64,000 bases of DNA. It comes from Ruania rhizosphaerae (lineage in GTDB: Bacteria; Actinomycetota; Actinomycetes; Actinomycetales; Beutenbergiaceae). Below the pieces are notes generated by a model. That model saw only the letters and a program-made list of their open reading frames with translations, was not told the origin of the DNA and did no database searches. The translations under genes were made by a program, and so were the position numbers. Below, piece by piece: positions 15,560 to 32,746 of the stretch. The stretch is taken from assembly GCF_009805705.1 (NCBI RefSeq), contig NZ_VSMB01000005.1:124001-188000 (forward strand). The letters run 5' to 3'. Every line of letters starts with the position of its first letter. Within the stretch, counting starts at the first letter, position 1.

Positions 15560-16726
15560 TCAGGGCGTGACCGCGAGCGCGAGCGCATCCATCATCAGGT
15601 GCAACTCCTCCTCGGTGACGCACAGTGGTGGTGCCAGCCGGATGGTGTGATCGTGGGTCTCCTTCGCGATCACGCCGTTCGCGGCCATCCGTTCGCTGAC
15701 CTCCCGCCCGGTGCGCGCGTTGACGTCCACACCGAGCCACAGCCCGATCTGGCGTACCGCCTGCACATGCCCGGAACTCAGCAGCTGGTCGGTGCGGGCC
15801 GCGAGCACTGGCGCCAGCGCGGCCACCCGCTCCTGGAAGAGGCCCGAGCGCAGCAGCTCGACCACGGCGATGCCGACGGCGCACGCCAGCGGGTTCCCCC
15901 CGAAGGTCGACCCGTGCGTGCCCGGTGTGAGCCCTCCGAGCACGTCGGCGCGTCCGACCACCGCCGAGACCGGGACGATCCCACCGCCGAGCGCCTTGCC
16001 CAGTGTGGTCAGGTCGGCCCGGACTCCCGCCAGATCCTGGGTGAGGATGGCCCCGGTGCGGCCGAGCCCGGACTGGATCTCGTCGAGAATGAGCAGCACG
16101 TTCTGCGCGTTGCACGTCTCTCGCACTGCCGCCAGGTAACCCTCCGGTGGCACGATCACGCCTGCCTCGCCCTGAACCGGCTCGAGAAGGACTGCGACCG
16201 TCGTCTCGTCGATCGCCGCGGCAAGGGCGCCAGCATCCCCGTACGGCACGATCCGGAAGCCCGGGGTGTACGGTCCGAACCCGGCGCGTGCCCCGGCATC
16301 GGATGAGAACGACACGATCGTGGTGGTGCGGCCGTGGAAGGAGCCCTCGGCGACGACGATGGTTGCGGTGTCGGCTGGAACGCCGCGCACGTCGTAACCC
16401 CACTTGCGGGCCGCCTTGATCGCCGTCTCCACCGCCTCGGCGCCGGTGTTCATGGGCAGGAGCATCTCGGTGCCGGTCAGTGAGGTCACGGCCTGCGCGA
16501 AAGGATCCAGCAATTCATGTCCGACAGCGCGCGAGGTGAGGGTGAGGCGGTCGAGCTGTGCGTGAGCAGCCGCGACCAGGGCCGGATGGCGGTGCCCGAA
16601 GTTCAGGGCCGAGAAGCCGGCGAGGCAGTCCAGGTACCGGACGCCTGCAGTGTCGGTCACCCACGCGCCCTCGGCGTGGGCGATCTCGATGTCCAGCGGG
16701 TGATAATTGGGTGCCAGGGTGGTCAT
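15560..16726 (-). CDS. rocD: Ornithine aminotransferase
   Basis: This is a 388-residue class III PLP aminotransferase. It begins NYHPLDIEIAHAEGAWV and has the glycine-rich MNTGAEAVETAIKAARKWGY, the aspartate-loop LILDEIQSGLGRTG, and the PLP lysine in LTTLGKALGGG. These match ornithine-oxo-acid transaminases, which make glutamate semialdehyde from ornithine. The start is the ATG at 16726, which overlaps the stop of the preceding SRPBCC gene by 4 bp. No arginase or dimethylargininase gene lies next to it. Confidence 0.9.
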   Translation of the reverse strand: MTTLAPNYHPLDIEIAHAEGAWVTDTAGVRYLDCLAGFSALNFGHRHPALVAAAHAQLDRLTLTSRAVGHELLDPFAQAVTSLTGTEMLLPMNTGAEAVETAIKAARKWGYDVRGVPADTATIVVAEGSFHGRTTTIVSFSSDAGARAGFGPYTPGFRIVPYGDAGALAAAIDETTVAVLLEPVQGEAGVIVPPEGYLAAVRETCNAQNVLLILDEIQSGLGRTGAILTQDLAGVRADLTTLGKALGGGIVPVSAVVGRADVLGGLTPGTHGSTFGGNPLACAVGIAVVELLRSGLFQERVAALAPVLAARTDQLLSSGHVQAVRQIGLWLGVDVNARTGREVSERMAANGVIAKETHDHTIRLAPPLCVTEEELHLMMDALALAVTP

Positions 16727-17175
16727 CTTGTCCTCCGTCCGACGGCGTCCTCGGCCAGCCGCAGCGCTCGAGCGGTCATCAGGTGCAGGGCGGGGGCGAG
16801 GAGCGGGTGCAGTAGGCGCAGCGGTCTGGCCAGGTGAACGTCTTCGGTCCAGTCGACCCGGCACGTGCGGGGACCCAGCGGGCTGACCTGGATCGTGGCC
16901 GAGCCCAGCAGCACCGGTCCGACCTTCTCGAAGACCGCCACACCGGGGCAGGGGTGAGGTGCGCCGTCGGGAGGGTCTGCCCGGGTGACCAGCATGACGT
17001 CTCGCAACCTCCGGCCGGTGACGGCCACGATCGTGTCACCGACCTCGGCCGGGCCGGGGCGGGCGGTGATCCGGGTGAACGGGATCAGCGATTCGTGCAG
17101 CGGGAGGGTGGTCAGGTGGTCGAAGACGGCGGTCGCGGACCCGGGGATCACCCGGGAGGCGGTGGTGCTGGTCAC
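16723..17175 (-). CDS. SRPBCC-family (polyketide cyclase/START-like) protein
   Basis: This 150-residue single-domain protein starts with a beta strand and helix VIPGSATAVFDHLTTLPLHES, continues with the curved sheet and ends with the long C-terminal helix (LMTARALRLAEDAV). That is the SRPBCC helix-grip fold, which encloses a hydrophobic ligand. It overlaps the rocD start by 4 bp, so the two are co-translated. No ligand or enzymatic role is evident; the link with ornithine catabolism is unexplained. Confidence 0.75.
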   Translation of the reverse strand: MTSTTASRVIPGSATAVFDHLTTLPLHESLIPFTRITARPGPAEVGDTIVAVTGRRLRDVMLVTRADPPDGAPHPCPGVAVFEKVGPVLLGSATIQVSPLGPRTCRVDWTEDVHLARPLRLLHPLLAPALHLMTARALRLAEDAVGRRTR

Positions 17176-17485: not shown

Positions 17486-20400
17486 GTGAGGTCCGTCCGT
17501 CTGCCCCGACCCGGTGGCTCCCGTGCCACCGATGAACCGACCCCTGACACGGGCCAGCGGGACGCCTCGGAACCGCACGACACCCCACGTGAGCGGGAGG
17601 TCGCCGCTGCCGTGGCCGCATGGCGCGGCAGGCTCACGGACCTCGTTGGTGGCAGCGCGTTGTGGGATGTCAATGCCCTGGGGGAGGCGATGGTGGAACT
17701 CACCGCCGCCCACCCCTCCGGCATCGCCCAGCTGTATGCCGGTCGTAGCACCCCGCTGAGCAATCTGGTGCGGGAGGGGTCCGCTCTCACCCAGGCACGT
17801 CGCCGCGCTCGGGTGGTGGTGGCCCGTACCGAGGAGCTCGCGCAACGATTCGGGGTCGCCCCCACCTATGTGGCCATGGGCGTAGCGACGTGGGAGTCGA
17901 CCACCGCCGGGGAGCCTGCCGGTGCTGACGCCCCCCCGCTGGGCGCAGACGACCTGGAGCACCACCGCGCGGGTGCCGACGTCGATCTGCTCGACCCCGG
18001 CTCGGTGCCCGCGGTCCCGGCGCTGACCGCCGAGCCGGAGGACATCGTCCCGCGGACGGTGCACGCGCCGGTGCTGCTGCGTCCGGTCCGGGTGCGGGTG
18101 CACGGATCCGATGCGGAGATCGACCTGGAGATCGACCCGGCGGTGGAACTGAACAGCCTCCTCGTGCGAGACCTGCGGGCCGCCGGTGTCGACATCGACG
18201 CCGCCCAGGTCGCAGGGTCGACCACGACCGCGCACGGATTCTCCCCGCGCCCAGCGCTAGAGCGCATCGCCGAACTGGGCACCGCGTTGCCAGGGTTCCG
18301 TCTCGAGCCACGCATCGTGGTCGGAGCCTTCGTACACCCTGGGCAGGCGCTGGCCGACGATCTGGACACCCAGCAGCGTGAGCTGGCCACCCACGACGTG
18401 GTCGCGGCGCTCGCCGGGGTGGACGGTGCGCGGGCGGCCGTGGCGACCGATGTGCCCGAGCCCGACCCCCAGGATCGTGATCCGGACGACGAAGCCGGGG
18501 TAGGCGATCTCGATCCCGGTCAGCAGGACGTGCTCGACGCTGTCGCCGTGGGCGGTCACCTGCTCGTCGACGCTCCGCCCGGGACCGACAGCGCCGCCAC
18601 GATGGCCGCCGTCGTCGCGCAGGCTGCCGCCGACGGGCGTCGTGTGCTCTACGTGCCCGGGACCCGGCGCGCGGGACAGGCGCTCCTGGACGCGATGCGT
18701 GGCGCCGGGGTGAGTGACCTGGCGCTGGACCTGAGCAATGACCCGCGCTGGCCGAGCACCGCGGCGGCACGCCTGATCGACGGGCTGAATCCGCCCGAGC
18801 CGGAGATCGACACCGAGACGCGTGCCGCCGAGCGGGCCCGGCTGCGCCAGGCGCGCAGGGATCTCAGCGACCATCTGACCGCCCTGCACGCACCCCGGGC
18901 GCCGTGGGACGCCTCCGCCTACGATGCGCTGCAGGCGCTCGCCGAGCTCACCTCCCAGCGTCCGGGCCCACGCACCCAGGTGCGGGTGGCGACGCGGGCG
19001 GTTCGGTCCATGTCCGAGCAGGACCGCCAGCACGCCCGCGAAGAGCTGGCCCGGGCTGCCGCACTCGGTGCGTTCCGCCTCCGCGCGGCTGACACCCCCT
19101 GGTTCGGTGCGCGACTGGCGTCCGCGGAGCACGCCACCGTCACGCTGGAGCGCGTGCGGGAGCTCGGTGAGCTGCTGCCCGAGCTCCGGGCCCAGATCGC
19201 CCGGACTGCTGCTCAGACCGGGCTCGACGAGGCGACCACCCTGGAGCAGTGGGCCGAGCAATTGCTGCTGCTGGACGGTATCCGTTCCTCGCTGGATGTC
19301 TTCACCCCGCACGTGTTCGAACGGTCGGCCTCCGATATGGTCGCCGCCACCGGAACCCGTTCCTGGCGGGCGCAGCACGATATCGCCATGAGCTGGGGCG
19401 TGCGGCGTCGGCTGAAGAAGCAGGCACGCGACCTGCTACGCCCCGGCGGATCCGTCGGTGACCTCCACGCCGAACTCATCGACGTCCAGGAGCGGCGCGA
19501 TCTGTGGCGCCGGCACTGCGCGGGTGGCGGGTGGCCCCGGTTGCCCGAGGGGATGCCCGAGATCACCCGGACCGAGGCGAAGGTCGCCGGCCTCGTGAAC
19601 GACCTCGATCCGGTCCTGAGCGCCACGCTGGGCGGCCGCACCCTCACCGAGGTGCCGTTGGAGGAGCTGGCCACCAGGATTGCTCGTCTGGGCGCCGACG
19701 ACGTCGCACTGCGGCAGCTTCCGGAACGGGCCGCCGTCCTGGCGCACCTGAGCGACCTGGGCCTGGACGACCTGCTCGCCGACCTCACCCAGCGCCGGGT
19801 GCCCACCTCGCTCGTGGGTGCGGAGTTCGACCTCGCCTGGTGGTCGAGCGTGCTTGAGGAGATCCTCGCCGAGGACCCGGCATTGGCAGGTCTGGAGACG
19901 TCCGTGCTGGAGGAGGCCGCCCTCACCCTGCGGGAGGCGGACCGGCAGCAGATCGCCTCCCTGACGGCGCCTGTGCTCGCGACAGTGCGGGAGCGGGTCC
20001 GCTCCGCCATCGCTCACGACCGGGCGCGGGCACAAGAGTTCTACCGCGCCGTGCGGGGTGGAGCCACCGACCTGAAAGACCTGCTGGAGGCCTACTGCGA
20101 GGTCGTCTGGGCGCCGCGTCCGGTGTGGGTGGTTCCGCCGATGGTGGTGCCACAGGTGCTGCCGCCGGAGCGCACTGTCGACCTGGTGGTGCTCGATGCC
20201 GTGCAGCACGTACCCACCGAACAGGTCATCTCGGCGATCGCGCGGGCTCAGCAGGTCGTCGTGGTCGGCGACTCGCGCCGCGGGGGTGCCGGTGGCGTGA
20301 TCTCGCAGCTGTCGTGGCTGCCGACCCTGGCCCTGCACCCCGGCCGCGGCCGGCAGGACCCCGACGTCGCAGCATTCCTGTCCGCTCACGGATACGACGA

Positions 20401-21841
20401 GGCCGTCCGTCCACTGCCGACCCCTCCCGGTCACAGTGGCGTGCGGCTGGAGCTCGTGGACGGCACCGGGATGCCGGTGCCGGGTGCCGACGTGGTCGAG
20501 AGCGTGCAGGCCGAGGTGGACCGGGTGGTCGACCTCGTGATCGACCACGCACTGAGCCGGCCGGAGGAGTCCCTGGCCGTCGTCGCACTCAACACCCGTC
20601 ACGCGGACCGCGTGCGGGAGGCGGTGCTCTCGGTCGCCGCAGGCAGCGCCAGCATGTCGGCGTTCTTCGACCAGTCCCGCCCGGAGGCATTCACCGTGGT
20701 GGACGTGGAGTCCGCGGCAGGGATGCGACGTGACGCCATCGTGCTCACCCTCGGGTTCGGCAAGACTCCGCACGGCCGGGTACTGCACCGGTTCGGTGCC
20801 ATCTCCGGGCCCGACGGCGTCGCATTCCTCGTGGACGCCATGGATGCCGTCCGTAGCCGGTTGACAGTGGTCAGCTGCCTGGCACCGGAGGACCTCGATC
20901 CGGAGCGGGTACGTGCCCCCGGCTCGCAGATGCTCCTGGACCTGCTGCAGATGGCTTCCGCCGGGCAGGTGCAGCGTCCGCAGGAGGACCCCGAGCTCGG
21001 GGTGGACCGGCTGCTGCTCGACCTGGCCGAGCGGTTGTGGCGGCGCGGGCTCACCGTGGTACCGCGCTACGGGATCCCCGGCGGGATCCGCATCCCGCTG
21101 GCCGTCGGGCACCCGGCGCTGCCCGAGGAACTCCTGCTCGCCGTACTCACCGACGACGAGGACTACATGGCCGAGCCCAGCCTGCGCCGCCGTGACCGGC
21201 ACTGGGTGGAACGCCTCGTCGATCGTGGGTGGCAGGTGCGCACCGTGTACTCCTCCGCCGTGTTCATGGATCCGCAAGGTGAGGCGGAGAAGATCGCCGA
21301 CGAGCTGGAGCGGATCGTCTCCGAGCGCACCGGGATCCCACCTGAGGAGCGGCCGGCACCACCGCGGCGCTGGGACGACTCCAGCGACGACGGCAGTGCC
21401 CCCGCGACCACCAGCTCAGCAGCAGCCCCTTCGGCGGCGACGACGTCGGCCGTGACGACCTCGGCCAGGGGTGTGGCGATGGTCGGCCAGGCTACGACGT
21501 CAGAGGCGCCCGCGCATGTGCAGGCAGGAGCCGCCCCCGGAGGATCCGGGCACGCGGACGGCAGTGCACACGAACGCGGCGAACGCCCCGACGTCCCGGT
21601 GGGGCAACCGTTGAGTCGCTATGGCGACGACGAGCTCGACGCCCTCGTGGCGTGGATATCCTCCGACGCGAAGCCGCGGACGGTTGAGGAGTTGCGGGAG
21701 GACCTGCGTAGCGAGCTCGGGATCGCCAAGCGTGGCACCCACGTCGATGCCGTACTCTCGGCGGCGGCGCGCCGATCCGGGCTCGCCCGGGAGGAGCCAG
21801 CCGGTGACGAGTCGGTCCAGCACAGCGAGGGCAAGGACTGA
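17486..21841 (+). CDS. DUF4011-type helicase/nuclease homologue with degenerate motifs
   Basis: The protein has 1451 residues. The N-terminal third resembles DUF4011 (WRGRLTDLVGGSALWD; FRLEPRIVVGAFVH). A superfamily-1 helicase core follows, entered by LDPGQQDVLDAV. Its Walker A is APPGTDSAAT (about residues 364-373), lacking the GK[S/T] lysine. Its Walker B is VVLDAV (about 899-904) instead of DEA. The helicase C-lobe segment AVRSRLTVVSCLAPEDLDPE is kept. The C-terminal nuclease-like domain (about 1175-1285) has IRIPLAVGHP where a catalytic Asp is expected and no ExK. A Ser/Ala-rich linker and a final helical domain end the protein. TAGCGT at 17474-17479 suggests a leaderless GTG start. It is probably a non-catalytic member. 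Confidence 0.75.
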   Translation: MRSVRLPRPGGSRATDEPTPDTGQRDASEPHDTPREREVAAAVAAWRGRLTDLVGGSALWDVNALGEAMVELTAAHPSGIAQLYAGRSTPLSNLVREGSALTQARRRARVVVARTEELAQRFGVAPTYVAMGVATWESTTAGEPAGADAPPLGADDLEHHRAGADVDLLDPGSVPAVPALTAEPEDIVPRTVHAPVLLRPVRVRVHGSDAEIDLEIDPAVELNSLLVRDLRAAGVDIDAAQVAGSTTTAHGFSPRPALERIAELGTALPGFRLEPRIVVGAFVHPGQALADDLDTQQRELATHDVVAALAGVDGARAAVATDVPEPDPQDRDPDDEAGVGDLDPGQQDVLDAVAVGGHLLVDAPPGTDSAATMAAVVAQAAADGRRVLYVPGTRRAGQALLDAMRGAGVSDLALDLSNDPRWPSTAAARLIDGLNPPEPEIDTETRAAERARLRQARRDLSDHLTALHAPRAPWDASAYDALQALAELTSQRPGPRTQVRVATRAVRSMSEQDRQHAREELARAAALGAFRLRAADTPWFGARLASAEHATVTLERVRELGELLPELRAQIARTAAQTGLDEATTLEQWAEQLLLLDGIRSSLDVFTPHVFERSASDMVAATGTRSWRAQHDIAMSWGVRRRLKKQARDLLRPGGSVGDLHAELIDVQERRDLWRRHCAGGGWPRLPEGMPEITRTEAKVAGLVNDLDPVLSATLGGRTLTEVPLEELATRIARLGADDVALRQLPERAAVLAHLSDLGLDDLLADLTQRRVPTSLVGAEFDLAWWSSVLEEILAEDPALAGLETSVLEEAALTLREADRQQIASLTAPVLATVRERVRSAIAHDRARAQEFYRAVRGGATDLKDLLEAYCEVVWAPRPVWVVPPMVVPQVLPPERTVDLVVLDAVQHVPTEQVISAIARAQQVVVVGDSRRGGAGGVISQLSWLPTLALHPGRGRQDPDVAAFLSAHGYDEAVRPLPTPPGHSGVRLELVDGTGMPVPGADVVESVQAEVDRVVDLVIDHALSRPEESLAVVALNTRHADRVREAVLSVAAGSASMSAFFDQSRPEAFTVVDVESAAGMRRDAIVLTLGFGKTPHGRVLHRFGAISGPDGVAFLVDAMDAVRSRLTVVSCLAPEDLDPERVRAPGSQMLLDLLQMASAGQVQRPQEDPELGVDRLLLDLAERLWRRGLTVVPRYGIPGGIRIPLAVGHPALPEELLLAVLTDDEDYMAEPSLRRRDRHWVERLVDRGWQVRTVYSSAVFMDPQGEAEKIADELERIVSERTGIPPEERPAPPRRWDDSSDDGSAPATTSSAAAPSAATTSAVTTSARGVAMVGQATTSEAPAHVQAGAAPGGSGHADGSAHERGERPDVPVGQPLSRYGDDELDALVAWISSDAKPRTVEELREDLRSELGIAKRGTHVDAVLSAAARRSGLAREEPAGDESVQHSEGKD

Positions 21842-21843
21842 AC

Positions 21844-22071
21844 GTGCCCGAGTGTGAGCCCCCGGAAGGGGGCGACATCACGAACGGGCGGCCACGGCGG
21901 CGCCATCGTCGCGCAGTTCACCCCGGCACGGGTCCCGAACCGCTGGTGGACCGGCGGCTTGTCGAATCCGGTGAGGACCGTGCCCGGCGCGGCGATGACG
22001 GAAACGGCGGGACACCGGACAGCTCGGACGACGAGCGTTTCCTGCGCGACGTGCCGCCGCACTGGTCCTGA
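21844..22071 (+). CDS. Small hydrophilic protein ending in FLRDVPPHW
   Basis: This 75-residue open frame starts with GTG 2 bp after the helicase-like gene, so it is likely translated from the same message. It is very rich in Arg, Gly, Asp and Pro, has no membrane segment and ends DDERFLRDVPPHWS. Short actinobacterial proteins with a similar C-terminal sequence exist as far as I recall, which favours a real gene. Function is unknown. It could be a partner of the upstream protein. Confidence 0.5.
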   Translation: MPECEPPEGGDITNGRPRRRHRRAVHPGTGPEPLVDRRLVESGEDRARRGDDGNGGTPDSSDDERFLRDVPPHWS

Positions 22072-22145
22072 CGCGCGTCGCTGCAGGCGGCGGGTCAGAT
22101 TGCCCTGCTCGCGAGGGCGCCCGATGCACTGTTCGCAAGGACCGA

Positions 22146-22535
22146 TCAGGAGGCTTTCGTCGCCAGCAGGTCCCGGATCTCGGTGAGGAGCGCAACGTCC
22201 TCCGCGGGGGCGACCGGTTCCGGTTCCTCGCCACGGGCGCGCCGCTCGGCGAGCTTGTTCATGGGCAGCACCACGGCGAAGTAGATCGCGGCGGCGACCA
22301 GGAGGAAGTTGATCAGCGCCGTCAGAACCAGACCGGGCTGGATCGTCGAGCCGTTGATCGTGAACGCCAGCAAGCTGTCGAGATTCGGATGGCCGAAAAT
22401 GGCCGCGATCAGTGGGTTGAGCACGCCTTCGACCAACGCCGTGACCACGGCACCGAAGGCGGCACCGATGACGACGCCGACGGCGAGATCGATGACGCTC
22501 CCGCGTGCGATGAAGTCCTTGAATCCCTGCAGCAT
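22146..22535 (-). CDS. mscL: Large-conductance mechanosensitive channel
   Basis: The 129-residue protein has the family length. It begins MLQGFKDFIARGSVIDLAV, with the pore-lining first helix VVIGAAFGAVVTALV, a periplasmic loop, the second helix LVLTALINFLLVAAAIYF and a charged cytoplasmic helix (LLTEIRDLLA). MscL homopentamers open under extreme membrane tension and release solutes on osmotic downshock. It converges with the preceding small gene and lies 27 bp after the SAF gene on the same strand. Confidence 0.96.
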   Translation of the reverse strand: MLQGFKDFIARGSVIDLAVGVVIGAAFGAVVTALVEGVLNPLIAAIFGHPNLDSLLAFTINGSTIQPGLVLTALINFLLVAAAIYFAVVLPMNKLAERRARGEEPEPVAPAEDVALLTEIRDLLATKAS

Positions 22536-23843: not shown

Positions 23844-26525
23844 GTGTCTGGGACAACAGTGCTCCGCCGAGCAGGGCTCGGCCTGGCAGTCGTGCTCGTG
23901 ATCGCACTGGTCGTCGCCACGGTGGCCACCTTCACCTTCGTGCGCCGCCCGCTGCCCGACCACGGGGGCACCGCCTCCCTGCCCGGGCTCGGTAGCGCCG
24001 TCGAAGTGATCCGGGACGAACGCGGCATCCCGCACCTGTACGCCGACACTGCGACCGACCTGTTCATGGCCCAGGGGTACGTCCACGCCCAGGACCGGTT
24101 CTTCGAGATGGACTACCGGCGTCACCTGACGGCAGGGCGCCTGGCCGAGCTCGTGGGCCCGGACGAGAGTGCGATTACTGCCGATCAGGTCATCCGCACG
24201 ATGGGATGGCGGCGGGTGGCCGAACAGGAATGGGACCTGCTCGAACCCGAGACCCGCACCTACCTCACCGCCTACGCCGACGGGGTGAACGCCTACCTTG
24301 CCGAGCGCTCGCCCAGCAGCCTCGCCCTCGAGTACACCGTGCTCGGTCTCCAGGTCGAGGTCGAGGACATCGAACCATGGCACCCGGTGGACTCCCTCGC
24401 CTGGCTCAAGGCCATGGCCTGGGACCTGGTGGGCAACTACGGTGACGAGCTCGAACGGGCCGCCGCGTACGGGCAGACCGGTGACGTGGACATGGTCGCC
24501 CAGCTTTTCCCGGAGTATCCGGCCGAACGGAACCTTCCCATCCTGCCGACCGCTGCCGAGACCGAGGCGAATGCTCAACTCGCCGCGGACGCCGATGACA
24601 CAGCGAACACCGGTACCGACGCCGATGCCTCGTCGCCCGGAGGGGCGAGCGGCACCGAGGTGTTCACCACCGACGCCACCGCGGCCTTGGAGTCCACGCT
24701 CTCGGCGCTCGCTGCCGTTCCGCACCCGCTCGGCAGCGGCGACGGTATCGGCTCCAACTCCTGGGTGGTCTCCGGCGAACACACCGAGTCCGGGTTACCG
24801 CTGCTGGCCAACGACCCGCACCTGAGCCCGTCCGTCCCGGGCATCTGGTACCAGGCCGGTCTGCACTGCCGCAGCACCGGCCCGGAGTGCCCCTTCGACG
24901 TCAGCGGATTCACCTTCGCCGGAATGCCCGGGGTGATCATCGGCCACAACGCGGATCTCTCCTGGGGGCTGACGAACCTGACTGCCGACACCAGCGACTT
25001 CTTCCTCGAACGCACCTACCCGGACGGCACCTACCTCTACGACGGCGGTCGTGAGCGGCTCACCGAACGGGTCGAGACCATCGAGGTCAACGGGGGTGAG
25101 CCGATCGAGCTGACCATCCGATCCACCGAACACGGTCCGATCGTCTCCGACGTACTCACCTCGACCCGTGAAGCCGGCCAGATGCCGCTCCCGGAGATCT
25201 CGCCACCGCCCGGCAGTGGCGGTTTCGCTGTGGCGCTCTCCTGGACGGCGCTGGAACCGGGCCGCACCATGGACGCGGTGTTCGCGATCAACACCTCTTC
25301 TGATTCCGATGACATCGCAGCCGCGGCCGCACTGTTCGAGGTGCCGACGCAGAACATCGTGTTCGCCACGACCGCCGGCGACATCGGCTATCAGGCGCCG
25401 GGTCGCATCCCCGTGCGCGAGGAGGAAGTGCGTGACGCGGTCGTGCCCTCCGACGGGTCGTGGCCGCGACCGGGCTGGCACCCGCGCTACGACTGGCAGG
25501 GGTACCTGGACCCCGCCGATCTGCCCTCTGCACTCAACCCGGACTCGGGTGTGATCGTGGCCGCCAACCAGCCGGTGCTCACCCCCGAGCGGTATCCTGA
25601 CTTCGGAAGCGATTTCGCCTACGGCTACCGGGCGCAGCAGATCTACGACCGGATCTCCGCGATGGTGGAGACCGGTCCTGTCGGCGTCGAGGACATGGCG
25701 CTCATCCAGGCCGACGAGACCGACCCCGCGGCCGAGATGCTGGTACCGGTGCTGCGTGAGATCGAGTTCGCCGACGAGGACTTCGCTGACTCCGAGCTCG
25801 ATGCAGAGTTCGTGAACGAGGCGCTGGAGCTGTTCGAGGACTGGGACCACGTCAACGACACCGACTCCGCCGCCGCTGCCTACTTCGCCTCCGTCTGGAC
25901 CAACCTGCTGCGGCTGACGTTCTGGGATCAGCTCCCCGCTGACCACCGTCCCAGTGGCGGCAGCCGGTGGATCGAGGCAGTCCGCGGTCTCCTTGCGGAC
26001 GAGGACAGTCCGTGGTGGGACGACCGGGCGACGCTGAACGTGGTGGAGCAGCGCGACGAGATCCTGGGTGAGGCGCTCATCGATGCCCGGGTCCAGCTGA
26101 CCGTCTCCCTGGGCAAGGACCCGCAGGACTGGCGCTGGGGCGGGGTCCACACATTGACTCCCACCCACGAGGTGCTCGGAGGCGATGCCGCCCCCGCGAT
26201 CGTGGCCGACTACATGAACCTCCCCGACGCCGGGCTCGGTGGCGGGCCATCGATCGTCAACGCCAACGGCTGGCGTGCCGACGCCTGGACCGAGGGCTAC
26301 CCGGACTTTGCCGTGACCGCGGTTCCTTCCATGCGGATGGTGGTCGACCTGGCGGATCTGGACGCCTCGACGTGGGTGAACCTCACCGGCAGCTCCGGGC
26401 ATCGGGCGTCAGGACACTACGGCGACCAGTACGAGGCCTGGGCAGCTGGGGAGACGTATCCCTGGCCCTTCAGCAGGAGCGCGGTCGAAGCGGCAGAACA
26501 GCAGCGGCTGACGCTGCAGCCCTGA
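23844..26525 (+). CDS. Penicillin acylase family protein (Ntn hydrolase)
   Basis: The 893-residue precursor has an N-terminal membrane anchor or signal (LGLAVVLVIALVVATVATFTF), an alpha chain beginning VEVIRDERGIPHLYADT, an acidic spacer at about residues 235-280 that would be excised, and the beta-chain N-terminal nucleophile Ser304 in G-SNSWVVSGEH. The AANQPVL segment of the active site is also kept. The family cleaves amide bonds of acylated amines, such as penicillins or acyl-homoserine lactones. The GTG at 23844 is divergent from fmdB; a TACCCT hexamer just upstream suggests a short or absent leader. The substrate is unknown. Confidence 0.9.
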   Translation: MSGTTVLRRAGLGLAVVLVIALVVATVATFTFVRRPLPDHGGTASLPGLGSAVEVIRDERGIPHLYADTATDLFMAQGYVHAQDRFFEMDYRRHLTAGRLAELVGPDESAITADQVIRTMGWRRVAEQEWDLLEPETRTYLTAYADGVNAYLAERSPSSLALEYTVLGLQVEVEDIEPWHPVDSLAWLKAMAWDLVGNYGDELERAAAYGQTGDVDMVAQLFPEYPAERNLPILPTAAETEANAQLAADADDTANTGTDADASSPGGASGTEVFTTDATAALESTLSALAAVPHPLGSGDGIGSNSWVVSGEHTESGLPLLANDPHLSPSVPGIWYQAGLHCRSTGPECPFDVSGFTFAGMPGVIIGHNADLSWGLTNLTADTSDFFLERTYPDGTYLYDGGRERLTERVETIEVNGGEPIELTIRSTEHGPIVSDVLTSTREAGQMPLPEISPPPGSGGFAVALSWTALEPGRTMDAVFAINTSSDSDDIAAAAALFEVPTQNIVFATTAGDIGYQAPGRIPVREEEVRDAVVPSDGSWPRPGWHPRYDWQGYLDPADLPSALNPDSGVIVAANQPVLTPERYPDFGSDFAYGYRAQQIYDRISAMVETGPVGVEDMALIQADETDPAAEMLVPVLREIEFADEDFADSELDAEFVNEALELFEDWDHVNDTDSAAAAYFASVWTNLLRLTFWDQLPADHRPSGGSRWIEAVRGLLADEDSPWWDDRATLNVVEQRDEILGEALIDARVQLTVSLGKDPQDWRWGGVHTLTPTHEVLGGDAAPAIVADYMNLPDAGLGGGPSIVNANGWRADAWTEGYPDFAVTAVPSMRMVVDLADLDASTWVNLTGSSGHRASGHYGDQYEAWAAGETYPWPFSRSAVEAAEQQRLTLQP

Positions 26526-31156: not shown

Positions 31157-32746
31157 TCAGGCGGGGGAGCCTGAAGCATCGCGCCAGGTGGAGCCATCAG
31201 ACCACAACGGAGAGTTCGTCGTGGTGTCGAAGATGGACGATCCGGGCGGGAACGCACTCGCGGCGGGCCGGGATGCGCTCGAATGCACTGGTGCTGGAAA
31301 GCCCTCGGGAGTTGTTTGCGCGGCACCCTCGATCACGTTCCCGGCGATCATGCCGGTGGATGGCTGGCGAGGAATGATCCCGTACGTCATGACGCCGCCA
31401 CGGCTGTCCGTGATCTGATTCGTCATGATGGTGGTGTTGGTGCTGCTGCCTGCTGCAGGCGCGAACGCACCGATGCCGACATTGCGGTAGGTGGCGTCGT
31501 CAGGGATGGGCGTGACGCCGTCGATGTAGTACTCGGAGCCGGCGTTGTGCACACCGTTTCCGAGCACCGTGAGGTGGTCCGTCCCATGGAAGAGGATCCC
31601 GCAGCGCTCCGCGTTCCGGACGAGGTTTCCCACGATCACATTGCGTTCAGCCAGTTGCTCGTAGTCGCCCTGATCTCCGGAGGAAAAGGACGAACTGTGG
31701 TTGAGCGGCATCCCGGAGATCATGATGCCCACGCCATACCACGGGCCGTTTCCATCGCTGTTCCAGGTGCCGACGCCACGCAGCACCCCCTCGACCACAT
31801 TGCCTTGGACGAGGGTGTCGCACGTGCCACGGGTCAGCTCGATGCCGCCGATTCCGGAGTCGCTGACGGTATTGCCGACGATGGCGAGATGACTCGGTCC
31901 GATGTCGTCGCCGAAGCCGCCTGCGAAGACCCCGGAGAAGAACGATCCGGCAATCGTGTTGCCCGAGCACGTCACCTCGCGGCAACCGCGCGAGAGTGAG
32001 ACTCCGTTGTCCGCTGACCACTCGATGCGGTTGTGGTGAAACTGGACCGAGTGACAGAACGTGAACCCGACGTCTTTGCATCGGCGGAAGTAGGTGTCTC
32101 GGACGACGACGTTGCGGGCACCGTTGACATGCACTGGAAGGTGTTCGAGACCGTAGAACCGGCATCGGTCAACAGTGATCCCGTCGATTTCACCAAGCGC
32201 CGGAGTATCCGGATCCAGCGGCCCCTGCGCGAAGATGCCGGTGCGTAGGTAGCCCTCCGATGGAAACGGACGTGGCTGAGCGCCGTCCCGTGCGTGACCG
32301 ACTGGTTCGCTGGTCATTCCTCCGTCGAACCCGAGACCACGGAATGTGATGTTTCGGGTGTCGCTCGATCCGCCGATCTTGAAGATGCGGGAGAGGGAGC
32401 CAGACATTGCCGGGTCCGCACGCAGGAGCGTGGCGTCCGCACCTAGGCCCTCGATGGTCACGTTCGTGAGCCCGGTGAGGTCGATCGGCGCCGTGAAGTC
32501 GTAGGCGGGTGCACTGGCGATCAGGTGCGCTCCGCCTGTGAGGGCGTGGCACGCTGCCACGGCGTCCTCCCACGCTTGCTGGTCGGAGGTAGTCCGGAAA
32601 TCCTCGACGAAGAGTCGCCGCGTGAGCGGATCAGCGGCTGCCTCGGCGGCTGGAGTGGCGAGCAGGGCGGCGAGCCCGCCGGTCGCTGCGAGGCCTGCGA
32701 CCAGGGACCGGCGGGATGGTGATCGTGGGGTGTCGTCGTGACTCAT
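31157..32746 (-). CDS. Secreted right-handed parallel beta-helix protein
   Basis: The 529-residue protein has a Tat signal with RRSLVAGLAATGG and a probable cleavage after AEAAA. The body is built of short beta coils: NVTIEGLGAD, NITFRGLGFDG, NVVVRDTYFRR, VTCSGNTIAGS, LVQGNVVEGV, NVIVGNLVRNA, LTVLGNGVHNA. This is the pectate-lyase/NosD-like fold of polysaccharide lyases and epimerases. The first 50 residues of the mature part (DFRTTSDQQAWEDAVAACHA) match the usual cap of such enzymes. No catalytic residues can be assigned. Its neighbours suggest action on an extracellular uronic-acid polymer. Confidence 0.82.
   Translation of the reverse strand: MSHDDTPRSPSRRSLVAGLAATGGLAALLATPAAEAAADPLTRRLFVEDFRTTSDQQAWEDAVAACHALTGGAHLIASAPAYDFTAPIDLTGLTNVTIEGLGADATLLRADPAMSGSLSRIFKIGGSSDTRNITFRGLGFDGGMTSEPVGHARDGAQPRPFPSEGYLRTGIFAQGPLDPDTPALGEIDGITVDRCRFYGLEHLPVHVNGARNVVVRDTYFRRCKDVGFTFCHSVQFHHNRIEWSADNGVSLSRGCREVTCSGNTIAGSFFSGVFAGGFGDDIGPSHLAIVGNTVSDSGIGGIELTRGTCDTLVQGNVVEGVLRGVGTWNSDGNGPWYGVGIMISGMPLNHSSSFSSGDQGDYEQLAERNVIVGNLVRNAERCGILFHGTDHLTVLGNGVHNAGSEYYIDGVTPIPDDATYRNVGIGAFAPAAGSSTNTTIMTNQITDSRGGVMTYGIIPRQPSTGMIAGNVIEGAAQTTPEGFPAPVHSSASRPAASAFPPGSSIFDTTTNSPLWSDGSTWRDASGSPA

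Follow-up and report, generated by a model that had tools for sequence, protein, structure and literature searches.

Within the 64,000-nucleotide stretch of Ruania rhizosphaerae DNA analysed here (contig NZ_VSMB01000005.1, positions 124,001 to 188,000; hereafter the window), we identified a helicase-nuclease gene whose product has lost its catalytic residues while retaining its full length, its predicted fold and a small partner protein. We interpret this product as a conserved pseudohelicase, a non-catalytic scaffold or scanner that operates with a docking peptide ending in a PPHW motif, and give this combined reading a probability of about 0.5. We are highly confident of the catalytic loss, the conservation and the partnership, and hold the scanner mechanism, which is drawn by analogy, only tentatively, so the combined statement lies between the two. 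Computation in this work, described below, established that the catalytic residues are lost, that the gene is conserved, under purifying selection and often at a shared locus, that the two open reading frames (ORFs) lie close together, and that the tail has been fused repeatedly.

The pseudohelicase gene is uninterrupted, as the sequence-only reading of this DNA had stated, and comprises the following features.

17486 to 21841, plus strand: pseudohelicase-nuclease coding sequence, 1451 aa, GTG start, zero internal stops, orthologues known
17606 to 18475, plus strand: N-terminal region (residues 41-330), DUF4011-like via its orthologues, with an AHPSGxAQLxAGR stretch in the alignment
18572 to 18601, plus strand: degenerate P-loop APPGTDSAAT (residues 363-372), from alignment and AlphaFold2 (AF2)
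20177 to 20203, plus strand: degenerate motif II VDLVVLDAV (residues 898-906), Walker B Asp retained and Glu gone, AF2 strand at 898-904
20363 to 20905, plus strand: second RecA-like domain (residues 960-1140), motifs V and VI degenerate, from alignment, AF2 and fold comparison
21023 to 21307, plus strand: degenerate MTES_1575 (Vsr-like) nuclease domain (residues 1180-1274), PF18741 match, catalytic residues gone
21641 to 21799, plus strand: C-terminal domain (residues 1386-1438), conservation confined to nearer relatives, NF058533 match reaching residue 1438

Motifs were compared with those of intact references, namely Rhizobium and distant DUF4011 proteins. The P-loop of the window protein reads APPGTDSAAT, compared to GPPGTGKSQT in active relatives, with S369 at the position of the Walker A lysine. 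Motif II reads VDLVVLDAV instead of FDVVIFDEA. The sequence-only reading had reported the lysine as absent, which alignment and structure prediction both bear out, and had given Walker B as LDAV in place of DEA; here the glutamate is indeed replaced (A905), whereas the aspartate D904 is still present. With neither the Walker A lysine nor the motif II DE pair, the protein lacks what defines an active superfamily 1 (SF1) helicase. Further along the chain, motif III has lost its glutamine (GDSRR vs GDPKQ), motif V its glutamine and glutamate (SAAGMRRD vs NVQGDERD), and R1123 of motif VI is retained. The nuclease domain reads RIPLAV...AVLTDD vs RIDFGI...GVECDG in the intact references. As had been proposed, nuclease residues are lost: relative to the I-D ... 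E-x-D acids of intact relatives, P1204 replaces Asp and L1221 replaces Glu, while D1223 remains, so that two of the three acids are gone.

In Pfam, the window protein matches PF18741 (the MTES_1575 restriction endonuclease, REase) over residues 1180-1274 with 44.2 bits against a gathering cut-off of 38.2, and P-loop families appear at residues 342-405 below threshold only. DUF4011 (PF13195) gives no match up to E 1, whereas the orthologues L059 and L138 match it with 29.0 and 47.5 bits (cut-off 22.2), and the window protein is thus a diverged DUF4011 member by descent only. No PDB chain was matched by sequence up to E 1. A second close copy in the same genome was rejected, as a protein search recovers this gene alone. 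The gene also contains an antisense ORF of 613 aa (19436-21277, minus strand), which is expected at high G+C and carries no gene evidence.

A model of residues 335-1285 was predicted with AF2 from a shallow alignment of 14 sequences. This core (predicted local distance difference test, pLDDT, 83.3; predicted template modelling score, pTM, 0.63) adopts a tandem RecA fold of the SF1, Upf1-like type. The degenerate P-loop sits between a strand (359-362) and a helix (369-382), which is the P-loop site itself; the refuting outcome named in the sequence-only reading, intact motifs placed elsewhere by structure, thus did not come about. Together with the match to an SF1 core, this position argues against a misplaced motif alignment, and alignment error was ruled out as a source of the motif loss. 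The best fold match in Foldseek with VIA-align is IGHMBP2 (4b3g_B, Z 18.5, 345 residues, root-mean-square deviation 3.5), followed among others by Upf1 (Z 18.0), UvrD (17.5), Dna2 (16.9) and Mycobacterium smegmatis HelD (15.5). Identity to the structural matches listed is 11-18 %. The structural neighbours are mostly Upf1-like SF1 proteins, including IGHMBP2, Upf1, Setx and Aquarius. The core of the window protein thus has its fold in common with the Upf1-like SF1 helicases (IGHMBP2, Upf1, Senataxin, Aquarius, Dna2), which are ATPases.

Because RNA helicases are common among the nearest folds, the main rival to our reading links the dead scaffold to RNA or transcription; it would bind RNA, RNA polymerase or ribosomes in the manner of Aquarius, Upf1 or HelD and use the PPHW tail to recruit a factor. 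The HelD match adds to this case. Against it, UvrD and Dna2 lie within 2 Z units of the best match, so the fold cannot separate RNA from DNA, and the degenerate nuclease is of the MTES_1575 type, which the available text of PMC3710099 assigns to the Vsr REase kind. We consider this alternative unlikely, albeit the foremost of those weighed here.

Orthologues were sought in 79 genomes sampled from the window's order, part of a larger group. A first contig scan yielded 13 homologues (L002-L014) with 28-70 % identity to the window protein. PF18741 finds some match in 76 of the 79 genomes; since it is broader than the orthologue family, whole ORFs were scored with profiles of the latter. The first batch of 71 sources gave 65 rows at 561-2017 bits (the window, 14 named loci and 50 sample genomes), five distant proteins (62-84 and 301 bits) and one source without a match. 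A search of 148 genomes of the class with the 384-position profile A2 contributed 15 further rows, five in the order and ten outside, and a third batch, covering the 23 order genomes still unverified, added 20. The resulting 100 orthologue rows include six that are cut or partial, as well as near duplicates (L004 and L087 are identical; L005, L008 and L093 are more than 93 % alike).

By profile scoring, a verified orthologous ORF is present in 76 of the 79 order genomes. The other three are G030, where the only trace is a 121-bit fragment close to the start of a contig, G056 (62 % complete), in which no orthologue was found, and G070, with merely a P-loop match (E 1.9e-4). Outside the order, full-length matches occur in ten genomes of family f38 (eight fetched) and in a single genome of each of f45 and f25. 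In most of the remaining class families, for which the non-matching genomes are partly listed, there are only weak P-loop matches or longer, different proteins. All orthologue rows that are not cut by a contig end contain open frames of 1192-1731 aa. The 0.8-Mb genome G053 (L101), a member of the order, retains the dead helicase gene. Several genomes carry, beside the orthologue, MTES_1575 proteins of about 2000-2300 aa with FDEAS and GDSKQ motifs (L042, L045, L047 and other sample loci), which are another, intact DUF4011-type family.

The catalytic loss extends across nearly the whole set. Neither the window protein nor any of L002-L014 has the lysine of Walker A or the DE pair of motif II. 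Among the 99 rows readable at the lysine column (one row is gapped there), the residue is absent in 94 and kept in five (L058-L061 and L138), and exactly these five also retain DEA. L058-L061, at the same locus, and L138, outside the order, are orthologues with intact helicase motifs and constitute natural active counterparts. Leaving out twelve rows (five intact, seven partial or duplicate) produces a set of 88 dead rows, in which the lysine is lost in 88, the motif II glutamate in 87, the motif III glutamine in 85 and the motif V glutamine in 75. What is retained on the ATPase side is the Walker B aspartate in 39 rows, the motif III glutamine in 3, the motif V glutamine in 13 and R1123 of motif VI in 78. 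On the nuclease side, D1204 is kept in 16 rows, E1221 in 25, D1223 in 85, and all three in 8. ATPase residues are thus missing nearly everywhere and nuclease residues less completely, from which we infer that the ATPase was probably lost before the nuclease.

The lysine is replaced by arginine in ten rows, eight from family f38 and two others, and in the remainder by A, V, S, G, P, Q, T and others. The sequence-only reading had asked whether the same substitutions recur in relatives; the loss is common to homologues, but the replacing residue varies between families. Judged from the aligned sequences, what is conserved is therefore the loss itself and not one particular substitution. A protein that still works as an ATPase or nuclease through unusual residues could draw on the retained Walker B aspartate, R1123 and D1223, on the eight rows with all nuclease acids and on the ten arginine replacements. 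This is very improbable in view of the near-complete loss of the motif II glutamate, of the motif III and motif V glutamines in most rows, and of the variable residue at the lysine.

The descent of the family was followed in trees from which the motif columns had been removed. In a tree of 66 rows the sequences group largely by genome family, and a tree of 85 rows does likewise, with L094, L095 and a split f8 as exceptions. The dead or intact label changes twice on the smaller tree and three times on the larger one, and well-supported branches force two changes; these trees come from short searches and contain some long branches and two long outgroup rows. Downstream of the intact L058-L061 lies mscL or 5-FCL, as in dead rows, and catalysis was therefore probably lost in place at an ancestral locus.

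The ratio of nonsynonymous to synonymous substitution (dN/dS, by the NG86 method) between the window protein and two congeners is 0.12 and 0.145, with dS of 0.80 and 1.12, near saturation. For the closer congener pair, it is 0.086 in the P-loop domain, 0.063 in the second RecA-like domain, 0.067 in the nuclease, 0.157 in the motif II/III stretch and 0.2-0.3 in the linkers. Over 17 pairs the values span 0.057-0.349, all well below 1. The intact pair L060-L061 has 0.26, with 13 of the 16 dead pairs below and three above it. The non-catalytic version is accordingly under purifying selection, the outcome that had been named as support for a non-catalytic function, and random decay was ruled out by the same 17 pairs. 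That the gene is decaying neutrally and on its way out might be read from the drifting catalytic columns and the long branches. Contradicted by dN/dS and opposed by the long uncut frames, the conserved partner ORF and the retention of the gene even in G053, this explanation has next to no probability. A structural or sensing role, as the sequence-only reading proposed, would fit a protein that is full-length, dead by its residues and under purifying selection, and whose homologues share the loss.

The second component of the proposed unit directly adjoins the stop codon of the pseudohelicase.

21833 to 21837, plus strand: AAGGA, Shine-Dalgarno-like, 6 nt ahead of the GTG of the small ORF, from sequence
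21844 to 22071, plus strand: small PPHW protein, 75 aa, GTG start, 2 nt past the pseudohelicase stop, with a basic N-terminal part, an acidic region and the C-terminus SSDDERFLRDVPPHWS
22054 to 22065, plus strand: PPHW motif in the conserved C-terminus of the small protein

A small co-translated protein had been proposed at this point, and a small ORF does adjoin the stop. The longest candidate (21854-22186) was rejected, as the conserved C-terminus lies in a different frame, that of 21844-22071; the PPHW partner is an addition to what the sequence-only reading described. The C-terminus SSDDERFLRDVPPHWS recurs in separate small ORFs of Ruania, Paraoerskovia, Buchananella, Kocuria, Rothia and Actinomyces; in Occultella and Kineosporia the pseudohelicase itself ends in the tail through an in-frame fusion. 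The pattern PP[HYF][WYFH] was then sought at most 20 residues from a stop, either fused to the pseudohelicase or in the 1.5 kb that follow it. Such a tail is present in 84 of the 100 orthologue rows, in 64 of them on a separate ORF and in 20 as an in-frame fusion, and in none of the controls (0/61 upstream stretches, 0/100 antisense stretches, 0/5 distant DUF4011 genes). Weaker calls among the 84 are L105, which is partly masked, L070 and L180, which lie more than 1.1 kb away, and L101, whose scanned match looks like chance, a PPHF end at 97 nt downstream being more convincing. Of the 16 rows without a scanned tail, seven have less than 400 nt of downstream sequence and L141, L151 and L152 carry one 1.9-4.4 kb away.

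The start of each small ORF was taken mechanically as its earliest in-frame ATG or GTG, with scanning begun 60 nt ahead of the pseudohelicase stop. This assigned a start to 63 of the 64 separate ORFs; 54 of these starts lie within 60 nt of that stop and 26 at -4, a 4-nt overlap. Many fused and separate forms share an acidic W-G stretch upstream of the tail, which the window copy has lost, and outside the conserved parts the small protein is variable between rows. The window copy and two others matched no Pfam or NCBIfam family. Within the window's own genome, broad use of the tail by other proteins was not seen: PPHW-x-stop occurs once, at the pseudohelicase locus, and a looser pattern gives two matches, one inside another frame. 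Across the 79 genomes there are at least 57 PPHW-x-stop matches, 23 of them at the pseudohelicase locus by coordinates and perhaps one more in G014, and a reversed control pattern gives 16; the tail may be shared with other proteins. Based on these sequence patterns we argue strongly that the pseudohelicase and the PPHW protein form one functional unit, because the pair occurs both fused and split, start and stop overlap, and the arrangement is present in the order and in an outside family.

The tail could also be a degradation or localisation tag, with the small ORF merely setting the level of the complex. Its extreme C-terminal position in most rows, the variability of the rest of the small protein and the predicted disorder of the fused tail in L012 are compatible with such a tag. 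The conserved part, however, also takes in the acidic stretch and, in many rows, the upstream W-G motif, and the tail stays with the pseudohelicase whether it is fused or split off, which makes the tag improbable.

The chromosomal surroundings are shared as well. By Pfam, the upstream side of the window holds a DtxR-type regulator, NlpC/P60, Usp and a class-III aminotransferase before the pseudohelicase, followed on the other side by MscL, an SAF protein, penicillin amidase, 5-FCL, a nucleotidyl transferase (named GalU by us), MoeA and GNAT. At a single threshold, 75 of the 99 other rows (54/64, 12/15 and 9/20 by batch) carry at least one of MscL, SAF, 5-FCL, GalU, MoeA and GNAT downstream, and contig ends truncate several of the 24 misses; none of the five distant DUF4011 loci has any of the six. 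This neighbourhood is housekeeping and no defence island. The aminotransferase (15560-16864, minus strand), between Usp and the pseudohelicase, has a frame about 72-73 % identical in Occultella (L004, L008). Several relatives carry, downstream of their pseudohelicase gene, a homologue of the penicillin amidase family protein (23844-26525, plus strand, 893 aa, 755.9 bits). A right-handed beta-helix or NosD-like protein of 529 aa is encoded at 31157-32746 on the minus strand.

In Actinomyces oris WVU627 (L015, NZ_CP116225.1, 371716-393720) the block stands on a 415-kb record named plasmid unnamed1, in the order metal-dependent regulator, C40 peptidase, Usp, helicase, small ORF, mscL, SAF, 5-FCL, Glp and GNAT. 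This record is a chromid or else chromosomal sequence under a wrong label. The orthologue in Actinomyces oris is labelled merely 'DNA helicase' in one record's annotation.

The closest named families are anti-phage or candidate ones. The Hhe or DUF4011 anti-phage helicase-nuclease (NF042953, PADLOC PDLC02194) belongs to the same superfamily, with a DUF4011-like N-terminal part, an SF1 helicase and an MTES_1575 nuclease. The window protein scores 154.8 bits against it in NCBIfam (curated cut-off 2000) and 102.4 bits in PADLOC; the intact-motif orthologue L138 scores 643.8 bits. Unlike Hhe, the window protein is dead by its residues, is present in nearly every sampled genome of the order and is partnered with a PPHW protein. 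The best named relatives are ProA (NF058533, 304.6 bits, curated cut-off 1500) and PADLOC PDC-S37 (335.8 bits), and the match extends into the C-terminal domain. Even L059 and L138, whose motifs are intact, score no more than 801 and 869 bits against ProA, which is compared here as a family name.

Going by these matches, the protein could be a relative of Hhe or ProA that has given up catalysis and serves in defence by sensing phage factors or acting as a decoy for them; a decoy in defence had been suggested in the sequence-only reading. The scores, however, lie far under both cut-offs. Defence genes are usually patchy in distribution, whereas this gene is present in 76 of the 79 order genomes, follows a largely family-like tree, has housekeeping neighbours and is under purifying selection. 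A defence role is therefore quite unlikely, and the decoy did not hold up.

Further parallels lie outside these families. In the available text of PMC10250203, a core DUF4011 gene stands beside the defence hotspot cDHS1 in every Pseudomonas aeruginosa isolate examined and adjoins a conserved small hypothetical gene; that pair belongs to a different phylum, and its likeness to the window is a DUF4011 gene with a small neighbour alone. Utp25, described in the available text of PMC9539457 as a conserved eukaryotic pseudohelicase and ribosome-assembly factor, likewise has a conserved non-catalytic helicase fold. No paper on the pseudohelicase family or the PPHW tail was among the matches listed in a literature search covering few subscription journals; for Micrococcus luteus, the text of PMC8467076, as far as available, brings up Walker A solely in connection with an FtsK/SpoIIIE protein.

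The precedent that guides our mechanism is that of RecC and AddB, whose inactivated SF1 helicase domains are proposed to scan DNA for Chi (PMC4824097, as far as its text is available). In both cases the helicase fold is retained and the motifs are gone; RecC and AddB, in contrast to the window protein, are UvrD-like and complexed with active subunits, and such a partner is absent among the window neighbours scanned. The nuclease fold of RecC is also dead. To our knowledge, few bacterial proteins have both helicase and nuclease dead, RecC being one such case. Weak Foldseek matches of L012 are 4cej_A and 3k70_D, which we take to be AddA and RecD chains, not AddB or RecC. The precedent is an analogy and not a membership.

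We postulate that a DUF4011 or Upf1-like SF1 helicase-nuclease at an ancestral locus lost its ATPase residues and part of its nuclease residues while its fold was retained. The resulting pseudohelicase would be a non-catalytic scaffold or scanner, most likely binding nucleic acid, as RecC and AddB do in break-resection complexes. The small protein is probably disordered, and its [DE]xxLxx[DE]xPPHW-like C-terminal tail is a putative docking peptide that would either tether the complex to a further partner or bind the pseudohelicase itself. Nucleic-acid binding, scanner function and the target of the tail are what we infer.

Several observations weigh against this proposal. The pseudohelicase evolves fast, and the replacing residues in its motifs vary. 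No resection partner was found among the neighbours scanned. L076, L103, L138, L139 and L190 have downstream sequence in which no tail was found, and in L071 a further 57 residues follow PPHW. The fused tail of L012 is predicted to be disordered, with pLDDT of about 30-37 in a model of modest quality (74.6). Four of the five intact-motif orthologues also bear the tail, which is thus not specific to the dead form; by the same token, the pairing is probably older than the catalytic loss.

A dead helicase and a dead nuclease are here joined in one protein that nearly a whole order retains, together with a partner outside the Pfam and NCBIfam families. We tentatively suggest, with less than even confidence, that the pair may be a hitherto undescribed two-component core machine of Actinobacteria. 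In it, a helicase-nuclease would have been turned into a scaffold or scanner in place, probably two or three times, nearly always with a PPHW adaptor that predates the loss and docks the pseudohelicase to a conserved hub. Such a machine would be RecC-like, outside RecBCD, and present in nearly every genome of the order. Intact and dead versions at one locus provide a natural experiment on a helicase fold without ATP, and superfamily names, whether helicase or anti-phage, can mislead for genes of this pseudohelicase type.

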